Shown in pieces: positions 34,732 to 41,185 of a stretch of DNA of 64,000 nucleotides. This DNA comes from Bacteroidota bacterium (GTDB lineage: Bacteria > Bacteroidota > Ignavibacteria > Ignavibacteriales > Ignavibacteriaceae). The stretch is from contig JAKALM010000002.1 in the NCBI GenBank assembly GCA_021824145.1, forward strand, positions 62,001 through 126,000, written 5' to 3'. The stretch's first letter is position 1; each line of letters begins with the position of its first letter. The position numbers and the translations under genes are program-made. The notes under the pieces were generated by a model that saw only the letters and a list, made by a program, of their open reading frames with translations, made no database searches and was not told where the DNA came from.

Positions 34732-35037
34732 TTAAACCATTTCCATTACGGTCCTGGCAGCTGTAACTTTTCCTACAAACTTTGATGTATATTCTGCCTG
34801 AAGTCTTGGCGCTTCTTTTTCAGCATAAGTTAAGTAATCGTCTATTGATTGACATTCATACTGAATTATATATGTCACTTCACCTTCTAAGCTAGTTGGA
34901 ATTCTAACTTTAAACATTCTATGGTTATTAAAATATCCAGTATGCAAAATATCTGGAATATGCTTGTCCTTCATCCACTGAAACCACTCTTGTTCAACTT
35001 CCTTTTTTACTATTGTGGTTATGCTATAAGTAATCAT
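34732..35037 (-). CDS. DUF4286 family protein
   Basis: 101 residues. It starts MITYSITTIVKKEVEQEWFQWMKDKHIPDIL and has YIIQYECQSIDDYLTYAEKEAPRLQ, the pattern of DUF4286 proteins, common in Bacteroidota. The fold resembles small ferredoxin-like ABM/dimeric barrel proteins. No catalytic residues are known. There is no signal peptide, so it is cytoplasmic. The gene is isolated, with about 100 bases to the TlpA-like gene downstream. Confidence 0.75.
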   Translation of the reverse strand: MITYSITTIVKKEVEQEWFQWMKDKHIPDILHTGYFNNHRMFKVRIPTSLEGEVTYIIQYECQSIDDYLTYAEKEAPRLQAEYTSKFVGKVTAARTVMEMV

Positions 35038-35260
35038 AACTTATTATAAATATTTTTATTTATACATTTAAAATTAAAAAAGATGTGTCGAACTTAGATT
35101 TTTTTTTATAAAGATGCTATTCAATTTTAAACTAAATAATTTTTCATTGAAAGTATTTTTTTAGTCTTGCGTAAAAATCTTTTTTCTGAATTAAAATTCT
35201 AATGAAAATAAGTTTAGTGATTCGCAACACACAAGAAAATTAAATATGGAAAATTAAATT

Positions 35261-35360
35261 ATGAACCACTATTTTTTAAGTGGCTCTTTCAAAAGGTTCT
35301 CCCCTGCCTTTTGATGCAAGGAGCTAAAGCCCAGTAATCGCCCGGTTACAGGGCTTTTTT
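35261..35360 (+). ncRNA. Candidate structured RNA / small repeat-like element with terminator
   Basis: Three helices in 100 bases. First, GAACCACT/AGTGGCTC (35263-35270 with 35279-35286). Second, a perfect TCAAAAGG/CCTTTTGA (35289-35296 with 35307-35314), whose loop contains CTCC (35299-35302) able to pair with GGAG (35320-35323), a possible pseudoknot. Third, a strong terminator: AAAGCCC-A-GTAATC, loop GCCC, GGTTAC-A-GGGCTTT, with a T run to 35360. An ATG at 35261 opens a 17-codon frame ending at TGA 35312. No plus-strand gene follows (35395-36456 is minus), so this is a stand-alone transcript or element. It matches no RNA family I can name. The first helix pairs slightly better on the minus strand (G-U instead of A-C), so strand is not certain. 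Confidence 0.45.
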
Positions 35361-35394: not shown

Positions 35395-36456
35395 TTATTT
35401 TTTCTTTGATGGAATATAATCTAGCGGAAGCATGTGCGAGATTCTTTCTTGTGTCCAATATCCATATTCATCAAATGGAAATTGATTATAAATATTTCCA
35501 AGTGTGTCGATTAAAACATAACCTGAATTGAATTTTAAAATACTCGGAGGATTATTAATGGAATTCAAATATTCAACTCCTAAAAAACCGTTGTAATAAA
35601 AACGAACATGAGATGTTAGTTCATCAGGTTCAATCTTTAATTTTTTCGGATCCAAATAATTGCCAGAACCTGTTAGTAATTTTTCTAAATTGCCTGATAA
35701 TAATTTAAAGCCTTCATCTTCAATTTTATTTCTTGCAACAGATGACAAAAAATGTCTAAGCGATCCTCTATAACAATATAATCTATTACTTTCCCAAATT
35801 TGTTTTTCCTTTTCATCTCTAGGTTTTAATAGTAAAAATTTTGGCAATACTAAAAATTGAATTTTAACATTTGGTTTATATTCAAATTTCACAAGAAGTA
35901 ATTCTATTCTATATCCTAATGCACCATTTACTACAATAATTGTACTGTCTGAAGAAGCAGTTAAAATATTGTTGTTTTCATCTTCATTAAAATTTAAGAC
36001 TTCCGGATTTAAAATCTTACAATAGTCTGAATATTCATCTGTCCCTAAAAATTCTTCTGTAAAAGTTTTAAGTTCATCTTTCCATTGTGTAGGTTTATTC
36101 GCAGTAATTAATATTTCGCTCGAATATATTTCCTTTGGTGTTAAATTGAAATTATGTTCAATAGATTTTTGACTTATTATTTTAATCGGAATGCTTTGCC
36201 ATTGATAACCGACATGAGAAACAACTAAAAAATAAGACCCTTCAGGTACATTATCTATTTCAAATTTTCCATTCTTGTCGGTTGCTGCTCCAATTGTAGT
36301 TGAGCTTAAAAAAACATTTACATCAGAAATTGGAAGTGAAGTAGTGGAATCGATAACTTTGCCCCAAATTTTTGCTTTTATTCCTATTTGTGCATTTAAC
36401 TGTTCAAAACCAAATAACAGTATAAAAACAAATAATATAAAATTTATTCTACGAAT
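35395..36456 (-). CDS. Exported protein with carboxypeptidase-regulatory-like domain (ATT start)
   Basis: 353 residues. The frame is open from a stop at 36480 down to 35395. It has no ATG, and a GTG at 35892 would remove the first half, which is plainly coding. The best start is ATT at 36456, preceded by AAAAGGG at a suitable distance and followed by a clear signal peptide ending LNAQ. Residues about 25-110 form a carboxypeptidase-regulatory-like beta domain (GKVIDSTTSLPISDVNVFL, GAATDKNGKFEIDNVPEGSY, VVSHVGYQ). The C-terminal half (WKDELKTFTEEFLGTDEYS and on) is the conserved but uncharacterised part usually found with it in this bacterial group. It is predicted to be periplasmic or surface-exposed. 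Confidence 0.78.
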   Translation of the reverse strand: MRRINFILFVFILLFGFEQLNAQIGIKAKIWGKVIDSTTSLPISDVNVFLSSTTIGAATDKNGKFEIDNVPEGSYFLVVSHVGYQWQSIPIKIISQKSIEHNFNLTPKEIYSSEILITANKPTQWKDELKTFTEEFLGTDEYSDYCKILNPEVLNFNEDENNNILTASSDSTIIVVNGALGYRIELLLVKFEYKPNVKIQFLVLPKFLLLKPRDEKEKQIWESNRLYCYRGSLRHFLSSVARNKIEDEGFKLLSGNLEKLLTGSGNYLDPKKLKIEPDELTSHVRFYYNGFLGVEYLNSINNPPSILKFNSGYVLIDTLGNIYNQFPFDEYGYWTQERISHMLPLDYIPSKKK

Positions 36457-39739: not shown

Positions 39740-41185
39740 ATGAACGAAAAGTACGAAGCAGTTATCGGATTAGAAGTCCACGCACAATTACTCACTGAAT
39801 CAAAAGCATTTTGCGGATGCTCAACTAAATTTGGAAATTCTCCAAACAGTAATGTTTGTCCTATTTGTTTAGGTCATCCTGGAGTTTTGCCAGTACTCAA
39901 TAAAAAAGTTGTTGAGTTCACTGTGCTTATGGGATTGGCAACCAATTGCACAATAAATGAAAAATCAATCTTTGCTCGAAAAAATTATTTTTATCCTGAT
40001 CTTCCAAAAGGATTTCAAACTTCGCAATATGAAGAACCGATTTGCGAACATGGTCATATAAATATTGAATTTCAAGACGGGACTACAAAAAAGATTGGCA
40101 TCACAAGAATTCATATGGAAGAAGATGCCGGAAAACTAATTCATGATCAATCTTATAATTCTTTAATCGATGTAAATCGCTGCGGTGTCCCTTTGATGGA
40201 AATTGTTAGTGAGCCTGACATACGAAGTTCAACTGAAGCATATCTTTACCTAACTAAAATAAAACAGATTGTTCAATATCTTGGAATTTGCGACGGCAAC
40301 ATGGAAGAAGGTTCTCTTCGATGCGATGCAAATGTTTCTGTAAGATTAAAAGGTGAAAAAAAATTCGGTACGAAAACTGAAATTAAAAATATGAATTCAT
40401 TCCGGAATGTTGAACGTGCGATTAATTTTGAAATTGATAGACAAATTGAAATATTGGAAGACGACGGAAAAATAACTCAAGAAACTTTATTGTGGGACGC
40501 AGATTTAAACCAAGCTTTCTCTATGCGAAGCAAAGAAGAAGCCCATGATTATAGATACTTTCCCGAGCCTGATCTAATGCCGGTAATTGTAAATGAAGAT
40601 TGGAAAAATGAAATCTCAAGAAAAATGCCTGAATTGCCGGATGAAAGAAAAGACAAATTAATTTTAAAATACAATCTTCCTAAATATGATGCTGAAGTCT
40701 TAACTCAAACAAAATCAATAGCTGATTATTTTGAGAAAGTAATTGAGACAACCGACGATTATAAATCTGCAAGCAATTGGATAATGACTGATGTTTTAAA
40801 AGTTGTAAACGATGAGAAAATTGATATACAAGATTTTTCAGTTCAGCCAGAAAATCTTGGCGAGCTTCTCAATCTAATTAAAAATGGAACGATCAGCGGA
40901 AAAATTGCTAAAGAAGTTTTTCAAGAAATGTTGAAAGAGAACAGAACTCCATCTGAAATTGTCAAAGAAAAAAACCTTGTTCAAATTTCCGATTCTGTTG
41001 AGATAGAAAGAATTGTGGAAACGGTTTTAACTAATAACAAAAGCCAAGTTAAACAATATATAAATGGTGAAGAAAAAGTTTTTGGATTTTTCGTTGGCCA
41101 AGTTATGAAGGAAACCAAAGGGAAAGCAAATCCTAAAACTGTTAATGAGTTATTAAGAAAAAAATTAGAATTATTAAAAAGTTAA
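39740..41185 (+). CDS. gatB: Aspartyl/glutamyl-tRNA(Asn/Gln) amidotransferase subunit B
   Basis: 481 residues, normal for GatB. It starts YEAVIGLEVHAQLLTESKAFCGC, with CxC and CPICLGHPG (a zinc-binding pair plus the family loop), then FARKNYFYPDLPKGFQTSQYE, HMEEDAGKL and EPDIRSS. The C-terminal YqeY-like tail spans about 410-480. With GatA and GatC (not in the window) it converts Glu-tRNA(Gln) or Asp-tRNA(Asn) to the amide form. It is 37 bases upstream of lepB and probably co-transcribed. Confidence 0.96.
   Translation: MNEKYEAVIGLEVHAQLLTESKAFCGCSTKFGNSPNSNVCPICLGHPGVLPVLNKKVVEFTVLMGLATNCTINEKSIFARKNYFYPDLPKGFQTSQYEEPICEHGHINIEFQDGTTKKIGITRIHMEEDAGKLIHDQSYNSLIDVNRCGVPLMEIVSEPDIRSSTEAYLYLTKIKQIVQYLGICDGNMEEGSLRCDANVSVRLKGEKKFGTKTEIKNMNSFRNVERAINFEIDRQIEILEDDGKITQETLLWDADLNQAFSMRSKEEAHDYRYFPEPDLMPVIVNEDWKNEISRKMPELPDERKDKLILKYNLPKYDAEVLTQTKSIADYFEKVIETTDDYKSASNWIMTDVLKVVNDEKIDIQDFSVQPENLGELLNLIKNGTISGKIAKEVFQEMLKENRTPSEIVKEKNLVQISDSVEIERIVETVLTNNKSQVKQYINGEEKVFGFFVGQVMKETKGKANPKTVNELLRKKLELLKS

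Follow-up and report, generated by a model that had tools for sequence, protein, structure and literature searches.

The window analysed here is a 64,000-nucleotide stretch of contig JAKALM010000002.1 (assembly GCA_021824145.1, positions 62,001 to 126,000) from a Bacteroidota bacterium of the family Ignavibacteriaceae. It contains, between two minus-strand genes, a short plus-strand element that is predicted to be a small RNA gene of about 79 bases and one of four copies in this genome. The gene on one side codes for a DUF4286 protein (34732-35037), that on the other side ends at 35395, and as both lie on the minus strand the RNA stands alone, in agreement with what a preliminary description of this DNA had said of its position. 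The next long plus-strand gene (481 aa) begins at 39740, more than 4 kb off, and the plus-strand open reading frames of 76-125 aa that precede it overlap minus-strand genes. The features of the element and of the region immediately upstream, in window coordinates, are as follows:

35216..35231, no strand assigned: CRP/FNR-like palindrome AGTGATTCGCAACACA, centred at -58.5, agreeing with 10 of the 12 positions of TGTGAY-N4-RTCACA
35247..35252, plus strand: weak -35-like box TGGAAA, 4/6 to TTGACA, situated at -35
35270..35275, plus strand: -10-like box TATTTT, at -12 from the start of P1, 5/6 to TATATT
35282..35360, plus strand: predicted small RNA gene P1-P2-terminator, 79 nt; 78.8 bits and E 2e-16 with covariance model R2, whose alignment also holds this very sequence; fold z -5.5
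35282..35286, plus strand: 5' strand of P1, GGCTC; all 5 P1 pairs covary (92 distinct homologs); also placed by the -10/-35 spacing
35289..35297, plus strand: 5' strand of P2; all 9 pairs covary and 99.4% of the cells are paired
35297..35306, plus strand: loop 1, UUCUCCCCUG, the outer U-G of which may pair; proposed pairing seed
35306..35314, plus strand: 3' strand of P2, from the covariation of P2
35321..35325, plus strand: 3' strand of P1, GAGCT, from covariation; overlaps the GGAG once named as a pseudoknot partner
35326..35357, plus strand: terminator hairpin P3, an inverted repeat; 8 of the 9 modelled P3 pairs covary
35340-35343, plus strand: loop of P3, GCCC; the T tract runs to 35360

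Secondary structure and covariation

In the predicted structure P1 encloses P2, and the terminator hairpin, whose loop is mostly C-rich across the family, lies downstream of both. The trimmed element (35282-35360) folds at -35.0 kcal/mol (z -5.5) and the 100-nucleotide element as originally delimited at -36.6 kcal/mol (z -4.7), with none of 200 shuffles being equally good in either case. Three adjacent helices had been described in this region, of which the central hairpin and the terminator are real: the perfect 8-base-pair hairpin is present as TCAAAAGG/CCTTTTGA (35289-35296 / 35307-35314), and the two arms of the strong terminator (35326-35340 / 35343-35357) are 87% complementary. The first hairpin, CCACT...AGTGG (35266-35283), lies outside the conserved element; it overlaps the -10 box at 35270-35275 and is missing from L007, which is the best match outside the source genome and occupies the syntenic place of the window copy. 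The actual outer helix is P1, formed by GGCTC (35282-35286) with GAGCT (35321-35325). The suggested pseudoknot between CTCC of the loop and a downstream GGAG fared no better: none of its 4 pairs covaries, shuffles are not exceeded, and one pair fails in 81 of 90 sequences. GGAG is found at the proposed partner place in only 5 of the 92 distinct homologs, being rarely kept because its bases mostly belong to P1 and change with their P1 partner. The 17-codon ATG frame noted earlier does exist (35261-35314), but its reading as a short peptide, decayed or recoded, is unsupported and was rejected; as its ATG precedes the inferred +1 by 21 nt and L007 lacks it, we take the frame to be a coincidence.

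Across 92 distinct rows of alignment A3, whose fit to the model biases it toward the structure, double-sided changes are seen at 22 of the 23 pairs and 97.8% of the cells pair, against at most 52.7% in controls with slid partners; none of 500 shuffles scored as high on any measure. Double changes are already present in 11/23 pairs of alignment A1, which was made without the model. Loop 1 is nearly constant, with UUCUCCCCUG identical in 83 of the 92 distinct homologs and the 14 nucleotides comprising the loop and its closing pairs invariant across all 30 sequences of A1. The run UCCCC (also given as YCCCC) occurs in loop 1 of 90/92 distinct rows, and both exceptions belong to family f2. In the 13 loci read out of the 15 f2 matches listed, loop 1 is without the C-run and the loop of the terminator contains five or more C in every case, though the model prefers C-rich terminator loops and the set may be biased accordingly. 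In the genus of the window most of the extra copies combine an intact loop 1 with a GCCC or GCCA terminator loop. It seems that the constant feature is an exposed C-run rather than one given hairpin. Two features of the trans-acting C-loop kind of small RNA are thus found here, namely a conserved C-rich motif exposed in loops and, on sequence evidence, a predicted own promoter combined with an intrinsic terminator.

Copies and phyletic distribution

A DNA search of the source genome recovered three further copies besides that of the window, and two partial matches (L005 and L006 among the six blastn matches) that resemble coding sequence and were discarded; a covariance model, R1, built from the 30 sequences of A1, finds four copies in the same genome. 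Matches by blastn were obtained in 23 of 59 genomes, the source genome included. R1 matches 72 of the 80 genomes of the family, those of the genus having between 1 and 9 matches each, and in the phylum 32 of 395 genomes, 29 of them in the class and 3 outside it, a tally that still includes the outside-class hits rejected below. The broader model R2, built from 100 rows, matches 73/80 family genomes and 105/164 order genomes; outside the family it matches 32 of the 84 order genomes and gives no match in the other 52. Among 391 sampled genomes of the class R2 has matches in 147, spread over 85 of 190 genera; searches of more than 40 genomes used stricter filters, so that some weak matches were lost, and a small number of low-scoring hits could be spurious. 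On these counts the family, as delimited by the models, spans much of the class to which the source genome belongs, one of environmental bacteria.

Four weak hits, three outside the class (G366, G423 and G448) and one within it (G203), scored 29-34 bits with R1 and are not counted as members. The three whose sequence was read (L085, L086 and L088, all but that of G366) look like ordinary terminators with no C-loop hairpin, and upon rescoring with R2 those of G366 and G203 were lost and that of G448 was weak at 37.7 bits. When named genomes were scanned for a 20-base pattern, 78 stretches were returned, which overlap with the genome sets searched by R1 and R2. R1 confirms 77 of them, from records named Ignavibacteriota, Ignavibacteria, Ignavibacteriales, Ignavibacteriaceae, Ignavibacterium, Bacteroidetes or BMS3Abin03; the single Clostridia stretch (L142) has no model hit, looks coding and is regarded as a chance match. 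In three family genomes, with G018, G064 and G071 listed as such, repeated copies are closely spaced, as in multicopy small RNA arrays (L079 1501-1581 and 1706-1786; G071:C120:6397-7108; G064:C357:8954-9352).

The earlier failure to match the element to a known RNA family is borne out by Rfam 15, in which only two tRNAs of the window, and only rRNA and tRNA in 20 member loci, reach the gathering threshold, none of them over the element. The best Rfam match of the element, RsaE/RoxS (RF01820), has 25.5 bits against a gathering score of 79 (E 0.025), and a relation to RsaE was rejected on account of this sub-threshold score. Of the further checks named in the preliminary description, those run did not refute a new RNA: second copies and covarying pairs were both found, and there was no phage or plasmid match at E 0.01. 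Its option of a small regulatory RNA is upheld by the several copies, the covariation and the promoter-like and terminator sequences. Its option of a dispersed short repeat holds insofar as there are several paralogous copies in the genus, but these are grouped by shared gene neighbourhoods and covary, unlike mobile debris. To our knowledge no base-pairing small RNA family has been described from Ignavibacteria; a literature search on small or noncoding RNA in Ignavibacteria returned none, which does not prove absence in print, and the only related paper found is concerned with known riboswitches in Caldithrix. That these loci form a real gene family, of a known kind and apparently undescribed, is strongly supported by the comparisons above.

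Gene neighborhoods

Comparison of the neighbouring proteins with Pfam and NCBIfam showed that the commonest locus has the order 82-aa gene, RNA, DUF3098-like gene, EutN gene (73 bits) and a gene which we take to be DprA-like; the main-locus group is defined by the presence of the 82-aa gene. The DUF3098-like assignment has 19.3 bits and so lies below the 25-bit cut-off. The 82-aa protein encoded upstream in the main locus (L021 1624-1872, minus strand) is well conserved in the family, has the C-terminus YPYLQFDTIRKIVYQISK and gave no Pfam or NCBIfam match at E 0.01. There are 43 loci at which an SPF-motif gene begins no more than 150 nt beyond the terminator; the gap between the T tract and this gene is 19-36 nt in 42 of them, and in the remaining one it is 71 nt, apparently to a downstream ATG. 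A gap of 19-36 nt leaves no room for a promoter of the DUF3098-like gene's own. In f2 a gene with the motif SPF..YW or YF lies downstream in all 13 loci read, and in other families of the class a similar-looking small protein, as judged by eye, follows the RNA in 10 of the 11 loci read.

Other copies have different surroundings. Those of the genus that lie beside DUF4286, SecF, carbamate kinase or other genes have no DUF3098-like gene downstream and keep the loop and the helices, and in a deep subfamily (f7, f9, f17, f20, f64 and f65), whose members have the outer pattern GAG.UGAG...GCUC in common, none of the 8 loci read has a DUF3098-like gene within 140 nt. The preliminary description had also considered a leader that had lost its gene. 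This is right of the family to the extent that the commonest locus does lie just upstream of the DUF3098-like gene; the window copy itself is a free-standing paralog. A gene directly downstream on the same strand, as a cis-acting attenuator or riboswitch would have, is found at the DUF3098-like loci and not at the window copy. A possible competing helix, between the 3' strand of P1 and the 3' side of the terminator, has 92% of its cells paired and is the best of the non-consensus helices, with a summed covariation of 1.64 vs 2.82-4.19 for the three main helices.

Promoters and upstream palindromes

The -10-like box lies at the canonical distance from the element, so that the predicted transcript begins with the first base of P1, which is 35282 in the window. 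Promoters were tabulated for 103 placements, with the chance motif matches L132 and L142 and a second row of L098 set apart; the table covers copies that lie far enough from contig ends and have at most one mismatch to the 12-base loop motif. Of the 45 copies adjoining the 82-aa gene, 41 have TTGACA without mismatch (6/6) as their -35 box, and the -10 box is mostly at -12. None of the 25 genus copies located elsewhere, the group on which the -35 figures for the genus are based, has a perfect -35 box, their agreement being 4 or 5 of 6. Four further genus copies (L133, L136, L153 and L165), one of which (L133) has a perfect TTGACA, were regrouped from 'other', bringing the genus group to 29 and changing its count of palindromes from 19/25 to 19/29.

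A CRP/FNR-like palindrome with at least 10/12 matching positions precedes these 19 of the 29 genus copies outside the main locus, with its centre at -68.5/-69.5 in 14 and at -57.5/-58.5, about one helical turn away, in 5 including that of the window; the other ten, L133 among them, have no score-10 palindrome. No palindrome of this quality precedes any of the 45 copies at the main locus, and two of the 26 remaining copies have one, at -82.5 and -87.5. The score of the window palindrome, taken for this copy alone, is reached by 0.02 of shuffles, and score-10 palindromes at -57.5/-58.5 also precede L007-L010, which occupy its syntenic place. A strict pattern, TGTKRYNNNNRTCACA, to which the window's own palindrome does not conform, has two occurrences in the source genome of 3.48 Mb, both ahead of RNA copies (reversed control: eight). 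Across 13 genus genomes there are 19 sites of this pattern (reversed control: 55), of which 12 are ahead of RNA copies, and of the other seven sites three are inside open reading frames and one lies 104 nt ahead of a peroxiredoxin-like gene. The motif was shaped on these promoters, so that its presence there is not independent and its rarity elsewhere is the informative part; these counts are suggestive of a specificity of the palindrome for the RNA promoters.

Two genes for CRP-family regulators (L272 and L273) score over the cut-off in the source genome, and this regulator family was also found in 14 of 14 control genomes. In a genus relative (L298, around position 1500) a strict palindrome lies, as judged by eye, between a ferritin-like and a peroxiredoxin-like gene, which hints at a possible role of the regulator in the response to redox stress. 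The CRP-family regulator gene L273 (G000:C14:50089-50310) adjoins a gene that looks like one for a DUF2249/DUF1858-type protein, a neighborhood seen at nitric-oxide or anaerobic regulators. Outside the genus, L065 and L091 display different dyads, TATGATTTAGATCATA and TATGATTTAAATCAAA, about 82-88 nt upstream of P1, which are closer to an FNR box.

Family f17 has a different arrangement at its 5' end, in that the RNA match starts on the very base after a tRNA-Met(CAU) gene in 3 of 3 loci (L248, L252 and L258, with tRNA genes at 1426-1500, 1581-1655 and 1582-1656, respectively). In L255 the tRNA-Met ends 43 nt upstream of the element, and in L249, L251, L253 and L254 no tRNA was found in the stretch. 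The f17 RNA may hence be cut out of a tRNA transcript by tRNA processing, and its 5' end agrees with that given by the promoters of other families.

Search for targets and for Hfq

The pattern AGGGGAGAA-N1-9-ATG occurs 310 times in 80 family genomes vs 197 times in the reversed control, and is not enriched in the 13 genus genomes (28 vs 24 in the control); 19 of the 30 start-adjacent sites inspected open frames of fewer than 50 codons. In a sample of 330 translation-start regions drawn from 464 kb of the source genome, window included, the complementarity of loop 1 was no better than that of 60 permuted loops (z 0.34). AGGGG is absent from these 330 sampled ribosome-binding regions, and the use of Shine-Dalgarno sequences in this genome is partial, with GGAG in 13% of the sampled regions. 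The two target tests, by pattern and by duplex, thus gave no support and yielded no target; genuine targets could be few in number or rest on imperfect pairing, or there may be none. A search for Hfq that was positive in 5 of 14 control genomes detected none in the source genome; as this genome is 95% complete the gene could have been missed, and the result fits an RNA that is independent of Hfq.

Possible function and origin

We propose that the family probably consists of short, terminator-ended, free-standing small RNAs that pair in trans via their C-rich loops and have CRP/FNR-induced extra copies; their status as trans-acting regulators is moderately supported by the features described above. 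According to this proposal the exposed C-run would pair in trans with G-rich stretches of mRNAs, perhaps at ribosome-binding sites, and would do so without Hfq. The commonest copy would be transcribed from its consensus-like promoter, and transcription could get to the DUF3098-like gene behind it only through read-through or by starting further upstream. Most of the extra copies of the genus, that of the window included, have weaker -35 boxes together with the CRP/FNR-like operator and are thus probably induced by a CRP/FNR-family activator; they would supply the same loop under a particular condition. If the RNA acts in this manner, it would be an apparent core small RNA of much of a class, with Hfq undetected in the one genome examined, and the strong-promoter copy and its CRP/FNR-linked paralogs would offer a clear case for how small RNA paralogs may divide labour. 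The covariance model makes the family findable and testable.

As regards origin, we put forward more tentatively, as a conceivable scenario rather than a probable one, that the class-wide RNA began as an early-terminated leader of the DUF3098-like operon that was repeatedly copied away, giving rise in this genus to multicopy, CRP/FNR-induced and Hfq-independent C-loop regulators. Were this the case, there would be a visible evolutionary path from a leader RNA to a trans-acting regulon.

The invariance of loop 1 and its closing pairs in the 30 sequences of A1 is stricter than pairing by itself needs, the target tests gave no support, and several copies per genome would fit titration. This raises the alternative that the RNA binds a protein, either as a sponge or as a regulator of an RNA-binding protein, with the C-rich loop as the protein site. 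We hold this to be unlikely, because the C-run can move to the terminator loop, which points to a short sequence and not a precise three-dimensional site, and no Rfam family reaches its cut-off. In a second alternative the RNA would serve the DUF3098-like operon in cis, mainly as its leader or attenuator, with the free-standing copies as by-products or decoys. It could account for the placement of the SPF-motif gene, too close behind the T tract for its own promoter and retained in all 13 f2 loci in which loop 1 has decayed, and it might employ the competing helix, weaker as this is than the main helices. It seems quite unlikely nevertheless, since the loop and helices persist in genus copies with no DUF3098-like gene downstream, including the window copy with its distance of over 4 kb to a long same-strand gene, and since the deep subfamily also shows no such gene within 140 nt at the 8 loci read. 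That the copies are a dispersed repeat or mere intrinsic terminators devoid of RNA function, as their number per genome, terminator shape and close spacing in G018, G064 and G071 might suggest, is largely contradicted and very improbable, given the covariation in P1 and P2 beyond the terminator, the loop invariance, the promoter-like boxes, the shared gene neighborhoods and the lack of phage or plasmid matches.

Comparison with known small RNAs

The proposed trans-acting regulators with C-rich loops have counterparts in other bacteria. LhrC of Listeria is described as a small RNA of 111-114 nt, present in five copies and bearing UCCC motifs in its loops; all five copies require a single regulator, a two-component system, for their expression, and Hfq is dispensable for the action on lapB (PMC4132741). 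The same source relates that UCCC motifs of small RNAs bind Shine-Dalgarno regions in low-GC Gram-positives (PMC4132741). The Ignavibacteria RNA is alike in being a short multicopy small RNA with C-rich loop motifs, with no homology seen or implied. LhrC is unlike it in being from Firmicutes, in having a known target and, within a single-stranded linker, a third UCCC site, and in its regulator, a two-component system in place of the CRP/FNR-like site found at the Ignavibacteria copies.

For RsaE/RoxS it is reported that C-rich regions can pair with G-rich mRNA sequences and that RoxS is induced by nitric oxide stress (PMC5419742). It has four C-rich regions, vs two C-rich loops in the Ignavibacteria RNA, and it belongs to a different clade. 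The Rhizobiales RNAs SmelA075 and SmelA099 are reported to combine variable stems with conserved anti-Shine-Dalgarno CCUCCUCCC loops (PMC3927594). They are alike in being hairpins with variable stems and conserved loop motifs, and differ in having three or four CCUCCUCCC hairpins, whereas the Ignavibacteria RNA has CUCCCC in one hairpin and usually a C-rich terminator loop. Rather than grouping the Ignavibacteria RNA with any of LhrC, RsaE/RoxS or SmelA075/SmelA099, we see its likeness to them in a possible mode of action.
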